Shown here: one piece after another, positions 23,255 to 38,975 of the stretch
How positions within the stretch are numbered: position 1 is the first letter of the stretch
Layout of the letters: the number at the start of each line of letters is the position of its first letter
NCBI GenBank assembly: GCA_021324365.1
Contig: JAJPJE010000022.1
Location: 1-64,000, forward strand
Length of the DNA stretch: 64,000 nucleotides
Direction: 5' to 3'
Source: Terriglobia bacterium
GTDB taxonomy: Bacteria > Acidobacteriota > Terriglobia > Terriglobales > Acidobacteriaceae
Notes under the pieces: generated by a model
What the model saw: the letters and a program-made list of their open reading frames with translations, nothing else
The model's database searches: none
What the model was told of the DNA's origin: nothing
Program-made: the position numbers and the translations under genes

Positions 23255-23983
23255 CTAGAAATGCACAAATCGAATAAACAATCCTGCCAGAATTCCGCCC
23301 ACCAAGGGACCGATGACTGGAATTGCCGCGTAATTCCAATCTGAATTGCCTTTGCCAGCAATCGGTAAGAAGGAATGCGCCAGCCGCGGACCGAGGTCCC
23401 TCGCTGGATTGATGGCATAACCGGTGGTGCCTCCCAGAGATAATCCAATTCCCCACACCAGACTAGAGACCAGATAAGGGCCGAGCCCGGCCGCGGGTCC
23501 TTCCGATGCAACCGCTTTTGAAAAGATTGCGCCAACAACAAGCACCAGTGCAAAGGTCCCTATGATCTCACTTAACAGGTTGGCGGCCATGCTCCGAATG
23601 GCTGGCGCGGTGCAAAAGCAGGCTCGCTTTAACTCCGCGTTCTCGGTTTCTTTCCAGTGTGGGAAGAAGTGTAGCCAGACCAGTGTCGCTCCAACCAAAG
23701 CCCCGGCAAGCTCAGCGACGAAGTAGCTCGGGAATTTCGCAAAATTGCCGGAGGTTACCGCCATGCCAACCGTGACCGCCGGGTTCAGATAAGCATCCGT
23801 GCTGCCGCAGGCGATCGCGGTAAACACACCAGCCATGACCGCAAAAGCCCATCCACTGGTGATCACGATCCAGCCGGCGCCCTCCGCTTTCGACTTCTTC
23901 AGCAGCACATTAGCAACAACACCATTGCCCAGGAGAATGAGAACGAGCGTACCCATGAACTCACCAAAAATTGGCGATCGCAT
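23255..23983 (-). CDS. glpF: Glycerol uptake facilitator, aquaporin (MIP) family
   Basis: This gene encodes 242 residues with six hydrophobic helices and the two half-helix motifs. NPAVT lies at residues 67-71 and NPARDLGPR in the second half. The Asp after NPAR is typical of aquaglyceroporins as opposed to water-only channels. It lets glycerol diffuse across the inner membrane. The start has GGAGG upstream. It lies 40 bases after glpK and 14 bases before the rhodanese gene, all on one strand, so it should be expressed with glycerol catabolism. Confidence 0.92.
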   Translation of the reverse strand: MRSPIFGEFMGTLVLILLGNGVVANVLLKKSKAEGAGWIVITSGWAFAVMAGVFTAIACGSTDAYLNPAVTVGMAVTSGNFAKFPSYFVAELAGALVGATLVWLHFFPHWKETENAELKRACFCTAPAIRSMAANLLSEIIGTFALVLVVGAIFSKAVASEGPAAGLGPYLVSSLVWGIGLSLGGTTGYAINPARDLGPRLAHSFLPIAGKGNSDWNYAAIPVIGPLVGGILAGLFIRFVHF

Positions 23984-24023
23984 CCCGTTGCCCTCCTACG
24001 ATGTCGCTAATAATCAAACACGG

Positions 24024-25523
24024 CTAGTCAAGCCAGTCGAATGAGCGCTCAACCGCTTTCTTCCAGAGGCGATACTTCTCGTTGCGCGGACCGTCAGGCA
24101 TCTGGGGTCGCCATGTCCGGTCTACCACCCACTGCGACCGTAATTCTTCTGTGTTCTTGAAGAAACCGGTCGCAAGGCCCGCGGCATACGCTGCGCCAAG
24201 AGCTGTTGTCTCCTTCACCCTGGGCCGAACCACTTCGCGATTCAGAATGTCGGCCTGGAATTGCATCAGAAGATCGTTCTCCACCATGCCGCCATCGGCT
24301 CGGAGAAGTTGAATCGGAATGCCTGAATCGTTCTCCATCGCTTCCACAACTTCACGAGTCTGAAAGGCGGTGGCTTCCAGAATAGCGCGCGCGAAATGTG
24401 CCTTGTTCGCGTAGCGGGTCAGGCCCGTAATTACGCCACGTGCACTACTCTTCCAGTATGGAGCGAACAGTCCCGAGAATGCCGGGACGATGTATACTCC
24501 GCCGTTGTCATCGACCGTGCGTGCGAGGGCTTCGATGTCGGCGCTGTTTCGGATGAGCCCGAAGTTGTCGCGTACCCATTGCACAAGAGCGCCCGTGATG
24601 GCAACGCTTCCCTCGATAGCATAGACCAGCTCTTCCTGGCCAAACTTGTATCCAACTGTAGTGATCAGGCCGCACTTTGACTGCACCAGGCGCTGGCCGG
24701 TATTCATCAGCAGGAAGCAACCCGTGCCGTATGTGTTCTTCGCTTCTCCTGGCGTGAAGCACGCCTGGCCAACTAGCGCCGCCTGCTGATCGCCAAGAAT
24801 CCCTCCGATCGGAACTCCGGCGATCAATTCGGGCTTCGCTGAACCATACACTTCGCTGCTGGAGCAAATTGTTGGCAGAACCGAAGCCGGAATGTTGAAC
24901 GTTTGTAGAAGTTCCGCATCCCAAGCGAGCCTTTGGAGATTCATCAGTTGCGTGCGACTGGCATTGGTGACATCGGTGATGTGAATTCCAGCATTGGAGC
25001 CGCCCGTCAGATGCCATACGAGGAAGGAATCGACTGTGCCGAACAGCAGATCGCCGTTCCCGGCTCTTGCGTGTGCGTCCGGGATATTGTCGAGAATCCA
25101 TTGCAGCTTGAGGGCGCTGAAATATGTAGCCAAAGGGAGGCCGGTCCTGGCGCGAAAGCGATCACCGCCCCCTTCCCTGCTCAAACGTTCGACTTCGCCG
25201 GCTACGCGCGTGTCCTGCCAGACGAGAGCATTGCAAATCGCCTGGCCGCTCTTGCGGTCCCACACGATTGTCGTCTCGCGTTGATTGGTAATTCCGACCG
25301 CCGCCAGATCCGCCGGCCTAATCGCGGCTTGCTGCATGGCCTCGCCGATTACCTGTTGCGTGCGAAACCATATTTCTTGCGGATCGTGCTCCACCCAGCC
25401 GGGCTGCGGGTAGATCTGCTCATGTTCTTTCTGCGCCTGCGCGACGATCCTTCCGGACCGGTCGAAGATGATGAACCGAGTGCTGGTCGTCCCCTGGTCG
25501 ATCGCTCCGATGTAATCCGCCAT
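24024..25523 (-). CDS. glpK: Glycerol kinase
   Basis: This gene encodes 499 residues, the standard length. The N-terminal [16 protein letters not shown] is the phosphate-binding loop of the FGGY kinase fold. [33 protein letters not shown]-like residues ([20 protein letters not shown]) and [19 protein letters not shown] are family signatures. The enzyme phosphorylates glycerol with ATP to glycerol 3-phosphate in the cytoplasm, the substrate of the upstream glpD. The ATG begins one base after the glpD stop, so the two genes are translationally coupled. Confidence 0.97.
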
Positions 25524-25524
25524 G

Positions 25525-27162
25525 CTAGTTTCCGAGGCCTGCAGTTGCTCTCATCCGCTGTAGTTTGTCGAGATATTCCGCAATCGCCAGTTCGCGCTGG
25601 TCATCCGTCCACGACAATTCGTCGGCAAGGTAATGCGCAGCGAATGGAGCAGCCTTGGCTGCCATGTCCCAACTGTAAAACTGCAATCCGATGCGGCGGG
25701 CCAGTATATCCTCAATGGTCATCGCCATGTCATGCCGAATGGCATGCACGATCTCAGCTTCAATCGCGGGGAACCCCTCGACGATGGGCTTGACGAACTC
25801 GCGATTCGAAGCCGCCAACTCGAGCATGGCGGTGGCGTTCGTTCCATATTTCGCGCTCATATGGCGCGCGGTTTCTGTGGTAACGCCGTACTTCTGTACA
25901 AGGGTCTCGAAAAATGTCGCGCTGTAATTCGCGCTGCCGTCCAGAGGATACGTTCGGGTCGGGCATGCGGTGATCGGCTGCTGGAGGCGTCTCTGAACCG
26001 CATTGATGGTGTCTTCCGACATGGCGCGGTACGTCGTCCATTTCCCGCCGAGAATGCTGATGAGGCCACTGTTCTCGTCTACCTCGACCCGGTGATCGCG
26101 ACTGAGGCTTTTCGTCTCGCGCGAGGCGTCACCGATCAGCGGCCTGATTCCGGCGAAAGCAGCGACGATTTGCTTGCAGGCTAGCGGACGTTGCAGGAAA
26201 CCATTGACATGCCGCAGCAGGTATTCGACGTCTTCCCGCGAGACGAATACTTCACCGGCCTCGGTTAGCGGTTCGTCTGTCGTGCCCACAAGCAAGCGGC
26301 CCATCCAGGGAATGGCGAAGATGACACGGCCATCACTGGTTTTTGGGATCAGCAGCGCGTCGCGTGCTTCAAACCCTTGCAGCGGGAAGAGTATGTGCGC
26401 ACCCCTACTGAGCTTCAGGAGCGGCATTGCATTCGGCTCGACCAGTCGGCGAACCGCGTCGCCTGCGGGGCCGGTGGCATTCACGAAAGCACGGGCCTGA
26501 CTTTCAAAGCTTCGCCCGGAAATTTCATCTCGGAGCAGCGCTGCCTGTAATTTCCCGGCTGCATTCTTCTCGAATCCAACCACCCGCGCATAATTCAGAG
26601 CTATTCCGCCGATGGCGATAAACGTTCGCACAAGAGCCAGATTGAATGCCGCATCGTCGAATTGACCGTCGCCATACGACACTGCACCGACCAGTCCCTC
26701 CGAAGTGAGCACGGGCAAACGTGACAACACCTGCCCGCGACTCAGGCTGCGGCTCGGCAAAAGATTGGCATTTCCGGCGAGAACGTCATAAGCCTTGACC
26801 CCAGCACCGAAGTACATCTTTTGCCAATGGCTATAGCACGGGATAAGGAACTCCATCGTGCCCGCAAGAAATGGTGCATTACGCAACATGTATCCGCGTT
26901 CGTAAAGGGCGCGCTTCACGACGCCGATTTGTCCAAAATCGAAATGGGCCACCGCTTCGCGAAGATAGCGGATGCCACCGTGAATCAGCTTTGTGGAAGC
27001 GCTGGAGGTGGCCGAAGCAAAATCGTTGGCTTCTACGAGAACGGTTCTCAGGCCGCGCAACTGCGCATCGAGAGCGCATCCTGCTCCCGTGGCGCCGCCG
27101 CCGATCACGCACAAGTCGAAGTGCTCTGCGGCGGCAGCAAGCGCATCGGAACGTCGCATCAT
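25525..27162 (-). CDS. glpD: Aerobic glycerol-3-phosphate dehydrogenase
   Basis: This gene encodes 545 residues, close to the usual 500-560. Two adjacent ATGs are possible (27162 or 27159). The FAD-binding motif is [22 protein letters not shown], followed by [16 protein letters not shown], which is diagnostic of the GlpD/GlpO family. Later motifs include [22 protein letters not shown] and [18 protein letters not shown]. It oxidises glycerol 3-phosphate to dihydroxyacetone phosphate at the inner membrane and feeds electrons to quinone. It lies 16 bases after the ABC substrate-binding protein gene and is coupled to glpK. Confidence 0.96.
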
Positions 27163-32494: not shown

Positions 32495-35400
32495 TTAGGA
32501 CTCGCTCATCACCAGTTCGCCGCCGGTCTCGAAGAGGCTCTCCACCTGGTACTTCGCTTCGGTAGCCGCCCGGATGCGAACTTCAATCTGCTTTTCGAGG
32601 GCAGCGATTCGCTTCGCGTCAGGTTTGGGCCGTTGCCCGAGCCGCACGAGAGCCGGCAAGGCCATCCACCACAGGAATTGCTCAAAAAGTTCCTTGTTGA
32701 AGTAGCGAATTCCTTCGTACGAATGCACGCCGATCAACCACGCAATGTCGGGATCGTGCAGCCAACTGAAGGGCGCTTGGGTAATTTTCGGCTTCTCTCC
32801 TGGAGCCCACGCCCGATGCGCTAAAAGTCCGCGAATGCGCGCAGCAGCGCGCCAGCGATCATCTCCTTCGATCCCCAAGGAATTGAACAGCTGTGCCATC
32901 GGCTCACGGAGACGCAAGGCGTCGAGCAACTGTGCCGCTGCGCGGTCGGGATCAGCCGGATCGAGGTAAGAGCCTAAGGCGTACATGGCGGCCCAGGCGA
33001 TAACCGTATCCCAGATCGCTGCCGTTTTTTCGCCTTCAGTATTGAACGGCAGTACCTTGTTCGCTTCCGCTAGCAGCTCTTCCGGAAATTGCTTCGCAAA
33101 TTGTGGGATCTGCAAAGCGCCGTCGATCTGATCTCCGAACAACTTTAAACATGTCTCAACATCGCCTTTCCATTTTGGAGCGGGCGATAGACCCGTAATC
33201 TCGCCATGATCGGCTTCGACGAAATGGCGCACCTGCTCCAGGAAAGCCCGGACGCGATCCTTCATTTGCGGCAACAGATCCGACTCAGGCTTGGCAGTTG
33301 CCTGTATTTCAGCGTGCTTGGCCAAAGAGTCCGCGATCGCTGGCTCCAGCACCCATCGCAAAGAATCGTGGACCGGCTTCAACTGCAGCGCTCGCATGGC
33401 ATCGGCGAGGCTCGAAACTCCCCGACCGCCGAGCGAATCGCACAGCATCCCCCACGGATGATTCAAGTCTTCCTGCAGATTCCGCCAATCCAAGAAGACA
33501 TGACATTTATAGGCACCGAGTTCCAAGCGCATTCCCTTCTCGGCGAGGTCGCGGGCGCGATAGAGATATTCCAGGCCCGTGACGGAGTCGCGGGCTGCGA
33601 TGAAGTTCGCTGCATCCCACGAAGCGCCCAGGGCGTCACCGACTGTCCGCTGACGAAGGTGCTTGTTGCCGTCGGGCCGCTTTTCCGCGTAAGCACACGA
33701 AACGCGAATCCAGCCACGCGTGTCGCCGTAACGATTGTTGTAGACGACCAGCGCCCGCTCATCGCCGAGTTGGTTGGAGTACGCGAACACGTCTTCGTTT
33801 ACCTGGCCTGATTCGGTATAGAAGTCGAAAAGCAGGAAGTCGCGCACTTCCGCAAAGAGCGCCCGCCGATGCAGCAATGGTGTTATCTCGCGCTCATGAC
33901 GCGCAACCAGCCACGAGTCCGGTTGTTCGTCGTGATATGCGCGGCGGTATTCCATTCCGTAGCGCTCGGTAAATCCCTCGATCTGCCCATGGCCGAACAT
34001 CGGAAGACCCGGCAGCGTTGACATCAATGTGCAAACGCCAAAATACTTGTCGCCTTTTCCGAACTGATCCACTGCTGTGCGTTCGTCCGGATTGTTCATG
34101 AAGTTGACGTAGCGCTTGAGGATCTCGGGGTCGAACTCGATGGTGTTCTTAATAACGCTGCGATAGTTCTGATTTTCCTCGTCGCGCAGCATATTCATGA
34201 AGGCGCTGTTGTAAACACGATGCATGCCGAGGGTACGGACGAAGTAGCCTTCGAGCAGCCAGAATGCCTCGGCAAGGAGAAGCGTGCCTGGGACTTCGGC
34301 AGCAACCCGATCGACGACTTCGCGCCAGAACTCCTGTGGCATGGCGCGATCGAATTCCGGCTTTGTTAATCCATGTTCGGCACGCGACGGAATCGCGCCG
34401 CCCGTACCCGGTACCGGATACCACAAGCGCTGGTAATGCTGCTTGGTCAGCGTCATCGCGGCGTCAAAGCGAATCACCGGCGACAGCCGCGCGACATGCA
34501 GAATGTTCTGGATGACCGCCTCACGCACTTCAGGCTTCAGGTAGTTCAACTGAGCTGTGTCGTTCCAGGGAAAACTGGTTCCGTCGTTTCCGTGATAAAT
34601 AAAACGAGTGTCTCCAGTCCAACGGTCCACTCTGCGAAACACCACGGCAGCATCGGTACGATCGTAGTAGTGATCTTCGATTTTGATCTCGACTCGCCCA
34701 TCGCTGGAAACATCCGGGCCGTCGAAGCGATAAGAAGGAAAGGGACTGTACGGCAACTGAATGAACCAGTCGGAGTGCTCGATCACCCAGCGCGAATCGA
34801 TCCCCATATGATTTGGCACCATGTCACTACCCATGCGAATGCCACGCAGCATGGCGCGGTCACGCAAATTGAGGAACGCACCCTCGCCGCCAAGATCGTG
34901 CGCGACAACATAGTCATCCAGCGAATACGCTGATGCCGCGGCCTCTGGATTTCCGGTCAACTGCTTGATGCGCTGCGATGCGCGGCTTCTCTCCCACAAG
35001 CCAATGAGCCAAAGCGCGTTGAAGCCGCGGCGGGCCATCAGGTCCAATTCTTCATCCGGAACCTGGCTCAGGCTGTGAATGTGCCGGCGGTATTTCTTCG
35101 ATAGTTGATCGAGCCAGACGTAAACACTTTTGGCGATCATTACCGTGCGCGGCATCCATTCGGTATCGGCACTGAAGCGCTCGTACTCAGGCTCGCGCGC
35201 AATGAAGTGCGGAATGGCCGCCGCACTGGAATCACCCTGTAAGCCGCCCAAGGCTCCAAGAGCCTGATGCGGATGGAACCGCATCCAGATTGCGATTTCT
35301 TCTTCCTTAAAGATGTCCAGAGCAACCATTATTCGCCGTAGAAAGTCGCCCAGCAGCGCCGTCCACTTCTCGCGCATAAAAGCGAGCTGGCCTTCCAGGG

Positions 35401-36091
35401 AATCCGGAGAAGCCAGCGCAGGTGCCCGCAACACCGCTACCAGGTTTTGATTGTCGGGACCGAAGCGCGGACGCGTTTCGAAGTAGCTGTGCAGTGCCGA
35501 TGTAATGCTTTTATAGTTCGTCTTTTCCGTCAGCGAGAGATCATCAAACAGTTCTCGATATTGTCGAAAAGCGGGATTCTCATTCGCCAGCCATAGCATC
35601 ATGAGCTCTTCGAGCGCAACCGCACGATGTGACATGCCGCCGGTGGACTTTGCGAGCCAGTCGCCGGATGTTTGCTCACCCCGGTAAACGACAATCGGTG
35701 GAAACTGCGTTGTGAACGCGAGTAAGGTTTTGTTCAGACCTTCGGCGCCCAACTGCGATTCGAACCATGTGACGGCATCCTCCATGGCTCGCGGGTCACG
35801 CTGCTGCCGGTAGAGCGCGACAAGAGCATGCAGTGCTTCATCGATGAGTCCCATGGCATTGAGCGCGCCGGGACGAACCGCCAACTCCGGGTGCTTCTGT
35901 ACATCGCGCAAGCGGTTCATCTTTTCTGCAAAGCGGCGGCTGGCTGCGGGGTTCGCAAAAAAGACATTGCCGTTCCACGAGAAGATTTCTTCCTCGAACT
36001 GATATTGGTCGCGAACCAGGCGGGAGACGTGAAACTCGAACTTGGGAAGGTGGGTCATCATTTTGAGCGCACTCGGTTCATGATTCGACAT
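32495..36091 (-). CDS. Large GH13-type alpha-amylase family protein with extra N- and C-terminal regions
   Basis: This gene encodes 1198 residues with no signal peptide. A GH13 (beta/alpha)8-like core spans about residues 340-800. Conserved region I is RMGSDMVPNHMGID, and region II is PVIRFDAAM with the nucleophile Asp543. Region III is LLLAEAFW with the general acid Glu608. Region IV is MNNPDERTA with Asp669, where the His usual before that Asp is Pro. A helical N-terminal part (1-330) and a long C-terminal part (about 830-1198) have no recognised domain. The protein probably acts on an intracellular glucan or oligosaccharide, but specificity is unknown. It is apparently monocistronic. Confidence 0.85.
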   Translation of the reverse strand: MSNHEPSALKMMTHLPKFEFHVSRLVRDQYQFEEEIFSWNGNVFFANPAASRRFAEKMNRLRDVQKHPELAVRPGALNAMGLIDEALHALVALYRQQRDPRAMEDAVTWFESQLGAEGLNKTLLAFTTQFPPIVVYRGEQTSGDWLAKSTGGMSHRAVALEELMMLWLANENPAFRQYRELFDDLSLTEKTNYKSITSALHSYFETRPRFGPDNQNLVAVLRAPALASPDSLEGQLAFMREKWTALLGDFLRRIMVALDIFKEEEIAIWMRFHPHQALGALGGLQGDSSAAAIPHFIAREPEYERFSADTEWMPRTVMIAKSVYVWLDQLSKKYRRHIHSLSQVPDEELDLMARRGFNALWLIGLWERSRASQRIKQLTGNPEAAASAYSLDDYVVAHDLGGEGAFLNLRDRAMLRGIRMGSDMVPNHMGIDSRWVIEHSDWFIQLPYSPFPSYRFDGPDVSSDGRVEIKIEDHYYDRTDAAVVFRRVDRWTGDTRFIYHGNDGTSFPWNDTAQLNYLKPEVREAVIQNILHVARLSPVIRFDAAMTLTKQHYQRLWYPVPGTGGAIPSRAEHGLTKPEFDRAMPQEFWREVVDRVAAEVPGTLLLAEAFWLLEGYFVRTLGMHRVYNSAFMNMLRDEENQNYRSVIKNTIEFDPEILKRYVNFMNNPDERTAVDQFGKGDKYFGVCTLMSTLPGLPMFGHGQIEGFTERYGMEYRRAYHDEQPDSWLVARHEREITPLLHRRALFAEVRDFLLFDFYTESGQVNEDVFAYSNQLGDERALVVYNNRYGDTRGWIRVSCAYAEKRPDGNKHLRQRTVGDALGASWDAANFIAARDSVTGLEYLYRARDLAEKGMRLELGAYKCHVFLDWRNLQEDLNHPWGMLCDSLGGRGVSSLADAMRALQLKPVHDSLRWVLEPAIADSLAKHAEIQATAKPESDLLPQMKDRVRAFLEQVRHFVEADHGEITGLSPAPKWKGDVETCLKLFGDQIDGALQIPQFAKQFPEELLAEANKVLPFNTEGEKTAAIWDTVIAWAAMYALGSYLDPADPDRAAAQLLDALRLREPMAQLFNSLGIEGDDRWRAAARIRGLLAHRAWAPGEKPKITQAPFSWLHDPDIAWLIGVHSYEGIRYFNKELFEQFLWWMALPALVRLGQRPKPDAKRIAALEKQIEVRIRAATEAKYQVESLFETGGELVMSES

Positions 36092-36216: not shown

Positions 36217-37845
36217 TCAATGAAACTTCAACATTTCGCGCGCCGCATTGTGCCCGGGCGTGCCCATCACGCCGCCGCCGGGATGAGTGCCGGATCCGCA
36301 AATGAACAGGCCGCGAATAGGAGTACGATATCGAGCCCATCCGGAAACCGGGCGGAGCATGAACATCTGGTCCACGCTCATCTCTCCATGAAATATGTTG
36401 CCACCAGTCAGCCCGAACTCTCGTTCCAGGTCCAGCGGAGTAAGCGTCTGCACGTGCTCAAGTCCCTTCGAGAACCCTGGAGCATACTCGTCAATAATTT
36501 CCAGCACGCGTTTTGTGAACGGCTCGCGCAACTCGTCCCACGTCCCCTGTCGCAGCCGATAGGGAGCATACTGAATAAAGATGCCGATAATATGCTTGTC
36601 AGCCGGTGCGAGCGTGGGGTCATACTGGGTAGGAGAAGTCAACTCCAGGAGAGGCGATTGCGACGGTCTGCCATATTTCGCATCGTCCCAGGCTCTTTCG
36701 ACATAATCAGTGTCCGGGCAAATGTGCATCGTCGCTCGATGCTGCGGCCCTTGATTTCCTGGCAGCGCACGGAAATTCGGCAGTGCGGATACTGCCAAAT
36801 TGATCTTGATGGAAGTTCCTTCGCAGCGGTACTTGTGGATCAAATCGAGAAAGTCTGCATCCAGATGCCGCCGGTCAATCAGGTTAAGGAAAGTTCGCTT
36901 GGGATCGAGATTGCTGGCAATCAGCGGCGCATCGAATTCTTCGCCATTGCGCAAAACCACTCCACGCGCCCGGCCGTTTTCGATCTTGATCGATTGCACC
37001 TCAGCATCGGTTCGGATCTCCGCGCCCGCTGCTTTCGCCGAGGCGGCAATGGCATCTGAGATCGCTCCCATGCCGCCGCGAACAAAACCCCACAATCCGC
37101 GGTGTCCGTCCACTCCGCCCATGCAATGATGAAGCAGAATGTAAGCCGTACCCGGAGACCTGGGGCCGCCATTCGCGCCTATGACTCCGTCGGTGGCGAG
37201 GGTAACCTTGATTTGTTCATTTTCGAACCAATCGTCCAGAAAATCGGCTGCACTCTGGGTAAAAATTTTTACCAGACCGACAATCTCTTTTGCGCTCAGG
37301 CCGCGCGTCTTGCCCAGCAGCTTCAGATATTCGGGAAGATCGAAGACTCCTTTCGGGGGAAAGACAGGTGGCGTGACATGCAGAATGGATTCGACCACCA
37401 TGGAAAGTCGCTCCAGGTGCTCTTCATAGGCGGGGTAGGTTTCGGCGTCACGGCGGGAGAATTTCGCAATCTCACCTAGAGTCTTGTTGCGGTCCTGCCA
37501 CAGAAATAGATAGCGGCCGTCGGGAAAAGGAGAAAAGAAGGCAGGATCTTTGGCGTCCACCCGATAGCCGTATCGCTCCAGTTCCAGATCCGAAACGACC
37601 TTGGGAGAAAGCAAGCTGGACTGGTAGGATGCTACGGAGACCCGGTACCCAGGCCAGACTTCCTCAGTGACGCAGGCGCCTCCCGGTTGATAGCGTCGCT
37701 CCAGCACCAGCACGCGCTTCCCGGCTTTGGCCAGGTAAGCTGCTGTCACCAGACCGTTGTGGCCGCCGCCGACAACTATGACATCGTATCGGGAGACTTT
37801 CCTGGAAAGGGCCGCTGCTCCCCTCCCTTGCGCAGACGTGCTCAT
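36217..37845 (-). CDS. FAD-dependent oxidoreductase, PYROXD2/CrtI-like
   Basis: This gene encodes 542 residues. An N-terminal dinucleotide-binding motif is present (YDVIVVGGGHNGLVTAAYLA), with the following LERRYQPGGACVTEEVWPGY. The C-terminal FAD motif is GLFICGSGTHPGGGVMGTPGHNAA. This order and the closing signature resemble animal PYROXD2 and bacterial phytoene-desaturase-like oxidoreductases. There are no carotenoid genes nearby. The ATG overlaps the stop of the upstream Rieske oxygenase by four bases (ATGA), so the two proteins are probably made together. The substrate is unknown. Confidence 0.88.
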   Translation of the reverse strand: MSTSAQGRGAAALSRKVSRYDVIVVGGGHNGLVTAAYLAKAGKRVLVLERRYQPGGACVTEEVWPGYRVSVASYQSSLLSPKVVSDLELERYGYRVDAKDPAFFSPFPDGRYLFLWQDRNKTLGEIAKFSRRDAETYPAYEEHLERLSMVVESILHVTPPVFPPKGVFDLPEYLKLLGKTRGLSAKEIVGLVKIFTQSAADFLDDWFENEQIKVTLATDGVIGANGGPRSPGTAYILLHHCMGGVDGHRGLWGFVRGGMGAISDAIAASAKAAGAEIRTDAEVQSIKIENGRARGVVLRNGEEFDAPLIASNLDPKRTFLNLIDRRHLDADFLDLIHKYRCEGTSIKINLAVSALPNFRALPGNQGPQHRATMHICPDTDYVERAWDDAKYGRPSQSPLLELTSPTQYDPTLAPADKHIIGIFIQYAPYRLRQGTWDELREPFTKRVLEIIDEYAPGFSKGLEHVQTLTPLDLEREFGLTGGNIFHGEMSVDQMFMLRPVSGWARYRTPIRGLFICGSGTHPGGGVMGTPGHNAAREMLKFH

Positions 37846-38975
37846 TGGGAATCCACTCCCCTGGTGCGTGCGGCTGAATCCATGGCGTCTTTCAAATCCC
37901 GAGCCAACAATCGATGAAACAGGTGCTCACCGGCTTCCCTTCGCACCGAAAGCCTGCCTGCCTGATAAGCGCGCGAATGTAACCCGCGCTGCACTGCCTC
38001 ACAGATGTTCAGGTCTTCCCTTTGAATCCCGTCGCTGACTGCAACACTCGCTGTATTCTGGTCGTGTTTTTCGGGTGAGACATCGGCAAAGTAGAAGTCA
38101 AAAACTACCTTGGTTGCATTAACACCGACCGGAATAACCAGATTGGTATCCATCACACCCTGATAGATGTTGATCATAAAATTCGGATAAATCCAATAGT
38201 AGTACGCGCGCTCGCCTGTCCGCGAAGCTGCGACTTGTGCGTCTGCTTGCGACGAAGTGATGGGACTTGTTTGCAGGCAGAAATGCTCACCGTTCTCGAT
38301 CGTGTACTCGGCATAGTCAAGAACGCTGTTTAGCCCCTTGTGCAGATAGGGGATGTGGTAGCCGCCATCAAGATAGTTGTCGACGAATACCTTCCAGTTG
38401 CAGTTGAGTGTGTAGGTGCGGGAATCGAAAAACTTCAGAGCGTCAATGCCGAGCGGTGCAACCAGCTGCTTTACGTTTCCTAGAAACTCGTTCAGGCGCT
38501 GTCCGGGCCCACCGATGCAAACAAAGACAAACTGTTCCCAGGTATCGACTGCGACCTGAACCAGCCCATTTGCAGCGCGATCGAAGTTGCAGACGCCAGC
38601 AAAGTCCGGGGTGCCCTTGAGGCTACCGTCGAGACCGTAACTCCATCCATGATAAGGGCAGCGGAACAGCTGAACGGACCCACATGGCTCCTGGACAACT
38701 GCTGCAGCATGATGACGACAAACATTAAAGAAGGCGTTTAACTTATTGTCGAAGCCGCGAACGACCACGATCGGCTCTCCGCCGACTTGGGTCGCCAAGT
38801 ATTGGCCGGGCTGCGCTACCTGGTCGGTCCTGCCCACCATTTGCCAGTTTTGGCCGAAGACGATGCACCGCTCGATTTCCGCCAGGTATGGGTCTGTATA
38901 CCATGGGGCAGGAATGGTAGACGCCTCTGCTAGCGGGCGCTGATCGTCGTACAAGTTCAGGAGACGTTCGATCAC
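37842..38975 (-). CDS. Rieske non-haem iron oxygenase, choline monooxygenase-like
   Basis: This gene encodes 377 residues. The Rieske [2Fe-2S] motif uses C86, H88, C106 and H109 (CRHH and CPYHGWSYG). The mononuclear-iron site is DNYLDGGYHIPYLH with H207 and H212. The sequence YPNFMINIYQGVMDTNLVIP further on closely resembles plant choline monooxygenase. It could oxidise a quaternary amine such as choline, but other ring- or amine-oxygenases share the fold. A partner reductase is not adjacent. Instead the PYROXD2-like gene follows with a four-base overlap. Confidence 0.85.
   Translation of the reverse strand: MIERLLNLYDDQRPLAEASTIPAPWYTDPYLAEIERCIVFGQNWQMVGRTDQVAQPGQYLATQVGGEPIVVVRGFDNKLNAFFNVCRHHAAAVVQEPCGSVQLFRCPYHGWSYGLDGSLKGTPDFAGVCNFDRAANGLVQVAVDTWEQFVFVCIGGPGQRLNEFLGNVKQLVAPLGIDALKFFDSRTYTLNCNWKVFVDNYLDGGYHIPYLHKGLNSVLDYAEYTIENGEHFCLQTSPITSSQADAQVAASRTGERAYYYWIYPNFMINIYQGVMDTNLVIPVGVNATKVVFDFYFADVSPEKHDQNTASVAVSDGIQREDLNICEAVQRGLHSRAYQAGRLSVRREAGEHLFHRLLARDLKDAMDSAARTRGVDSQ

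Follow-up and report, generated by a model that had tools for sequence, protein, structure and literature searches.

The analysed stretch of DNA (the window) comprises positions 1 to 64,000 of contig JAJPJE010000022.1 in the Terriglobia bacterium assembly GCA_021324365.1. On its minus strand, the open reading frame (ORF) at 32495-36091 is a real gene: it starts with ATG, has tblastn relatives at 80 named loci and encodes a protein of 1198 amino acids. A Pfam scan placed the glycoside hydrolase family 13 (GH13) domain PF00128 at residues 348-709 (26 bits versus a cut-off of 22), together with a sub-threshold match to Malt_amylase_C. We refer to this protein and its full-length relatives as the long GH13 family. 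Because most relatives start a few residues ahead of a conserved E-F-H, translation may in fact begin at Met11 or Met12 rather than at the first ATG. An earlier sequence-only reading had located the nucleophile Asp543, the acid Glu608 and the third acidic residue Asp669 in the protein, with proline replacing the histidine of region IV. All of these residues were found as described, namely Asp543 in the region II motif IRFDAAM (34463-34465), Glu608 in the region III motif LLLAEAFW (34268-34270), and Pro668 and Asp669 in the region IV motif NNPDE (residues 666-670; 34082-34096). The protein thus keeps all four catalytic residues of GH13, namely Arg and Asp in region II, Glu in region III and Asp in region IV. 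No 19-residue stretch of the protein exceeded a Kyte-Doolittle value of 1.6, and stretches starting within the first 60 positions reached at most 0.30; judged by this hydropathy profile, the protein is most likely cytosolic and devoid of a signal peptide, in agreement with the sequence-only reading.

AlphaFold2 modelling of the whole protein (mean predicted local distance difference test score, pLDDT, 85.8; predicted template modelling score, pTM, 0.70) yielded, in this order, a helical domain extending to residue ~280, a low-confidence linker (residues 276-303, pLDDT <50; its end part at 35183-35227), a barrel (~310-750) with a C-terminal beta-sandwich (~753-873; both at 33467-35182), and a helical C-terminal domain (residues 876-1198; 32498-33466). 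When modelled alone, the N-terminal domain (residues 14-288; 35228-36052) was predicted to be all-helical with a mean pLDDT of 92.7 and a pTM of 0.89. Neither flank gave any Pfam match at E up to 1, which bears out the earlier statement that they belong to no recognised family. Their sizes, put at about 330 and 370 residues, had to be revised to ~300 before and ~320 after the core, as the GH13 part, comprising barrel and beta-sandwich, is larger than had been assumed. In eight relatives scanned with Pfam, PF00128 alone passed its cut-off, and no NCBIfam model came near its cut-off, the best being alpha-amylase MalA (NF041321; 38 bits versus 875, E 6.8e-10).

Searches for solved relatives of the N-terminal domain returned a best Foldseek E of 0.74, a best VIA Z of 3.3 and a best sequence match of E 0.4; this failure to match solved structures does not prove a new fold. 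For the C-terminal domain, the search was by sequence profile rather than by its separate fold, and all matches were to designed or unrelated helical proteins (best E 0.0095). We also ran a profile of each flanking domain against 199 genomes. Each matched 21 genomes, the same 21 in both cases (the long gene of G055 being spread over two contigs), and every match lay inside the long gene; the three-part architecture is therefore obligate in this sample. Within the N-terminal domain, the polar residues His21, Arg27, Arg52, Glu85, His88, Glu161, Glu162 and Asn172 are invariant. This set, which includes an ExxH (85-88), may mark a candidate binding site rather than reflect mere packing; metal binding by the ExxH is one speculative option.

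Conservation of the active site was assessed in an alignment of 68 full-length long GH13 proteins. Arg541, Asp543, Glu608, Asn667, Pro668, Asp669 and Glu670 were invariant (68/68), as were Phe542 directly before the nucleophile (68/68) and Gly702-Gln703 at the end of region VII. NPDE was read in all 80 named loci, which come from many phyla (74 main ORFs by one pattern, three by a second look and three by six-frame reading), and in 39 of 42 further loci outside the named set; of the other three, L013 starts at SNPDER, and L012 and L014 are fragments. It follows from this conservation of NPDE and of the catalytic residues across loci that the proline is an ancient, fixed substitution and that strong constraint acts on the active site. 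As far as such comparisons can tell, the protein is neither an oddity of a single genome nor a dead enzyme.

The family is broadly distributed. Among genome contigs, at least 583 candidate stretches encode a relative; the 80 named loci were retained from these. A match was present in 12 of 41 near relatives and in 57 of 297 genomes surveyed across the phylum, the latter comprising, by our own sorting of the phylum table, 37 genomes with the long gene, 19 with a short relative only and one with a weak match. Named records (taxa taken from record titles) include Acidobacteriaceae, Anaerolineae, KSB1, Eisenbacteria, Spirochaetales, Planctomycetes and Deltaproteobacteria bins, with Acidobacteriota and Chloroflexota among the phyla represented. 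The gene is also present in the cultivated relatives Terriglobus albidus, Edaphobacter lichenicola and Granulicella rosea. The long genes of two Rhodanobacteraceae metagenome-assembled genomes (L123 and L142) group beside an Edaphobacter copy in the first tree described below, away from their named phylum, a placement that may reflect either gene transfer or mis-binned contigs. A narrow literature search returned no title or abstract opening that plainly describes the long family, which is no proof of its being unpublished. The long GH13 family is widespread in bacteria and apparently unstudied.

To place the family within GH13 we turned to structure and phylogeny. A single-sequence search of solved structures gave nothing better than E 0.026; a profile built from the 68 relatives matched alpha-amylase 3dhu_A with E 3e-8. 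The predicted GH13 part (residues 309-869), which has the barrel and C-terminal beta-sandwich of the GH13 fold, also had 3dhu_A, an L. plantarum amylase, as its best fold match (Z 29.0; root-mean-square deviation, rmsd, 3.2; 395 residues), followed by GlgE structures (3zss; Z 25.8, rmsd 3.4, 426 residues) and others from Z 24.5 downward. The nearest other GH13 protein in the window's genome is encoded by a 514-residue open frame (L015), one of a group of short GH13 proteins of ~500 residues. Of 21 such loci read, L178 (truncated) and L182 (no true relative) were excluded, and the remaining 19 proteins were aligned. In a first tree of 49 rows, the long clade had support of 100/100, but its placement with the short proteins stayed open (split 65/22) because the TreY and GlgX branches were very long. 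After removal of TreY, GlgX and the neighbours of L070 and L089 and thinning of the long and GlgE rows, a second tree of 40 rows united long and short proteins with support of 99/97, and the approximately unbiased test rejected grouping the long rows with GlgE (p-AU 0.023). Support for the short group itself was 53/15 only, so the long family may arise inside or beside it. Together, the 100/100 clade, the lack of any NCBIfam model near its cut-off and the two obligate extra domains provide good support for the long family as an uncharacterised GH13 subfamily, one of two proposals of the sequence-only reading.

We consider it likely (probability about 0.7) that the protein, as a member of this uncharacterised subfamily, is a catalytically competent alpha-glucan enzyme acting in the cytosol by a retaining mechanism. 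An alpha-glucan role is favoured because the catalytic residues are invariant, the predicted fold is that of GH13, the closest relatives by sequence are GH13 proteins with canonical motifs, and alpha-glucan genes are enriched among the neighbours. Of 87 loci (85 distinct), 17 have flanking ORFs that match reference alpha-glucan enzymes. These ORFs number 25, whereas the density of such genes in the window's own genome predicts ~2.5 in the 0.93 Mb of flanks. At six loci (L116, L080, L111, L113, L078 and L143) an alpha-glucan gene lies nearby on the same strand. The arrangements are long-GlgE-TreS-TreZ-GH57 on one strand (L116, TreZ confirmed by NCBIfam), GlgA-long-GH57 (L080), GlgP-like-GH57-GH57-long (L111), MalQ-long (L113), long-unknown-GlgA-unknown-MalQ (L078) and long-GlgA (L143); at L092, a GlgX confirmed by NCBIfam lies on the opposite strand. 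The first unknown gene of L078 (11532-13025) is a 498-residue ORF 4 bases after the long gene and ahead of GlgA, with no Pfam or NCBIfam match. The window's own genome contains GlgA, GlgP and GH57 genes as well as TreS-, TreY- and TreZ-like genes (the Tre genes were assigned by visual inspection or from their identity to neighbours). It holds only five PF00128 matches, none of them GlgX- or GlgB-like, in an assembly that is 95% complete and in which GH77 was not searched.

Several observations on gene context weigh against this assignment. At 70 of the 87 loci, no alpha-glucan gene was present among the flanking ORFs tested, and five of the 17 positive loci share one arrangement (an opposite-strand GH57, Anaerolineaceae-type) and cannot be counted as independent cases. 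The density control is crude: it draws on a single genome, excludes GH77 and includes some reference sequences that come from the flanks themselves. More generally, no cluster of neighbours recurred in more than nine loci. In the window, the long gene has no alpha-glucan neighbours: the two genes upstream, named by eye, are Rieske oxygenase-like and flavin adenine dinucleotide (FAD)-oxidoreductase-like, and neither has a counterpart among the other loci in the ORF database. An operon with these two genes was rejected for this reason. The Rieske-like and FAD-like genes themselves (36217-38975) overlap by 4 bases, an apparent case of translational coupling. Elsewhere in the window, GlpF-like channel, glycerol kinase-like, glycerol-3-phosphate dehydrogenase-like and rhodanese-like genes (by eye) are grouped at 23255-27162; scanning the window for Rfam families and tRNAs gave no matches.

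By analogy with other GH13 enzymes, the long protein would act on intracellular alpha-1,4-glucan by retaining double displacement, in which Asp543 would attack the anomeric carbon, Glu608 would serve as acid/base and Asp669 would steady the transition state. In ordinary GH13 enzymes, the side chain of the region IV His contributes to binding of the sugar where it is cleaved; Pro668 would remove the side chain provided by this His. The neighbouring genes suggest a role in glycogen, maltodextrin or trehalose metabolism, and we see the transfer of glucosyl or maltosyl units from one alpha-1,4-glucan chain to another as slightly more probable than simple hydrolysis. The two obligate helical domains might serve in glycogen binding, in oligomerisation or assembly, or as a lid. 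As links in glycogen-trehalose traffic, PMC11046441 gives GlgP, TreX/GlgX, TreY-TreZ and MalQ; that the long enzyme takes part in this traffic is a guess. A bolder proposal is that of a subfamily crossing phyla that independently lost the region IV His, carries an obligate new all-helical N-terminal fold, and reshapes chains by transfer, replacing GlgX or MalQ between GlgA/GlgP and TreY/TreZ in bacteria that, like this one, have no recognised GH13-type GlgX or GlgB. Taken as a whole, we hold this proposal to be rather improbable.

Among the alternatives, a cytosolic hydrolase (alpha-amylase or alpha-glucosidase) that degrades stored glycogen is a real possibility, albeit not the one that we expect. 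Both the best fold match and the best, though weak, NCBIfam match are alpha-amylases, but the fold relatives comprise transferases as well as hydrolases. It is more doubtful that the enzyme acts on another alpha-glucoside, for example a trehalose-like compound or glucosylated small molecules, and that its glycogen-type neighbours are incidental. Such neighbours do occur at only 17 of the 87 loci, and on Rhizobium and Caballeronia plasmids (L183 and L184) a short GH13 gene directly follows a large 'glucosidase' gene at both plasmid loci viewed; the enrichment of alpha-glucan genes over background argues against an incidental association. The plasmid pair suggests a two-gene unit, and no match to this 'glucosidase' was found near L015, in the window or at the named loci. 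A non-catalytic glycogen-binding regulator or scaffold, the other proposal of the sequence-only reading, would fit the large helical flanks and the altered region IV. We nevertheless regard it as very improbable, as all four catalytic residues (Arg, Asp, Glu and Asp) are unchanged throughout the 68 aligned proteins, which is unexpected for a pseudoenzyme; with no catalytic residue lost, the idea was rejected.

A GlgE-like maltosyltransferase or a phosphorylase acting on a sugar 1-phosphate, with the proline as a mark of phosphate-donor chemistry, also seems unlikely to us. This idea draws on the same proline ahead of the third Asp in all seven GlgE sequences compared, on the rank of GlgE as second-best fold and on the GlgE gene adjoining the long gene in L116. 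In addition, in a sample of 20 genomes from the window's family, GlgE was present in 8 of the 12 that carry the long gene and in 1 of the 8 that lack the long gene (one-sided p 0.025, uncorrected for phylogeny). No such trend was seen outside this family (1/9 versus 16/170, p 0.60), and PF11896, the GlgE N_S domain, had no match in the window's own genome. At L116, moreover, the neighbour is a true GlgE, and the long protein is therefore no GlgE substitute there. Membership of the long family in GH13_3 (GlgE) was rejected, given the absence of PF11896 from the long protein (no match at E up to 1), the differences in regions I and II detailed below, and the rejection of a joint clade. The reading we prefer remains that of a retaining alpha-glucan enzyme of a separate subfamily.

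GH13 is among the best-studied enzyme families, yet here a wide and conserved group fits no curated family model and combines a fixed change beside a catalytic Asp with two domains of no known family. What stands out more than the proline is how widespread and conserved the family is, along with its N-terminal domain, for which the searches returned no solved relative, and the presence of glycogen genes around the long gene at some loci. The enzyme may fill a gap in the glycogen-trehalose metabolism of common soil bacteria. The role of the region IV His is, moreover, directly testable, because canonical short relatives exist, one of them (L015) in the same genome.

Finally, we compared the long family with known GH13 groups. 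The short GH13 proteins (L015, L163-L181 and Rhizobium WP_112908427.1, an 'alpha-amylase family glycosyl hydrolase') share 25-29% core identity with it, as well as a DxVPNH-type region I and the GQ ending region VII. They are devoid of the N- and C-terminal helical domains. Their GxRCDMAM and ENHDE correspond to IRFDAAM and NNPDE in the long family; all 19 aligned proteins have RCDMAM in region II and ENHDE in region IV. According to PMC11239784, Cys directly precedes the nucleophile in 81% of GH13_48/49 members, Glu is found in region IV of GH13_49/38, and GQ ends region VII in GH13_38/48/49; on these three features, the short group resembles the GH13_38/48/49 set. The amylases 3dhu and 4gkl (T. 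neapolitana AmyB), which from PMC11239784 are probably of GH13_48 type, match the long protein in fold (Z 29.0 and 24.2) and share its GQ. Identity in the structural alignments is only 18% and 14%, and the long family has Phe542 for the Cys before the nucleophile and NPD for NHD. These same two replacements set it apart from GH13_49, whose GQ it shares. The best NCBIfam match, the haloarchaeal alpha-amylase MalA model, is one that we take to be linked to GH13_49, and the long family lacks the ENHD of that group. GlgE, with NTPDI in seven of seven sequences (six same-phylum loci and the GlgE beside L116), has both the Pro and the Asp of region IV in common with the long family; the residue ahead of the Pro is Thr in GlgE and Asn in the long family. 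A close match to a characterised subfamily with this proline would have spoken against the sequence-only reading; GH13_3 is characterised and has the proline, but it is no close match. Region I of GlgE reads AFQC, without the Asn-His of VPNH in the long family; and the residue after the nucleophile is Asn in GlgE (RVDNPHT) and Ala in the long family (RFDAAM). Because these other GlgE motifs differ, the shared proline looks like convergence, acquired independently in the two groups. Since GlgE has it too, the region IV proline alone is less special than it first seemed, and GlgE shows that an active glycosyltransferase is possible without the region IV His.

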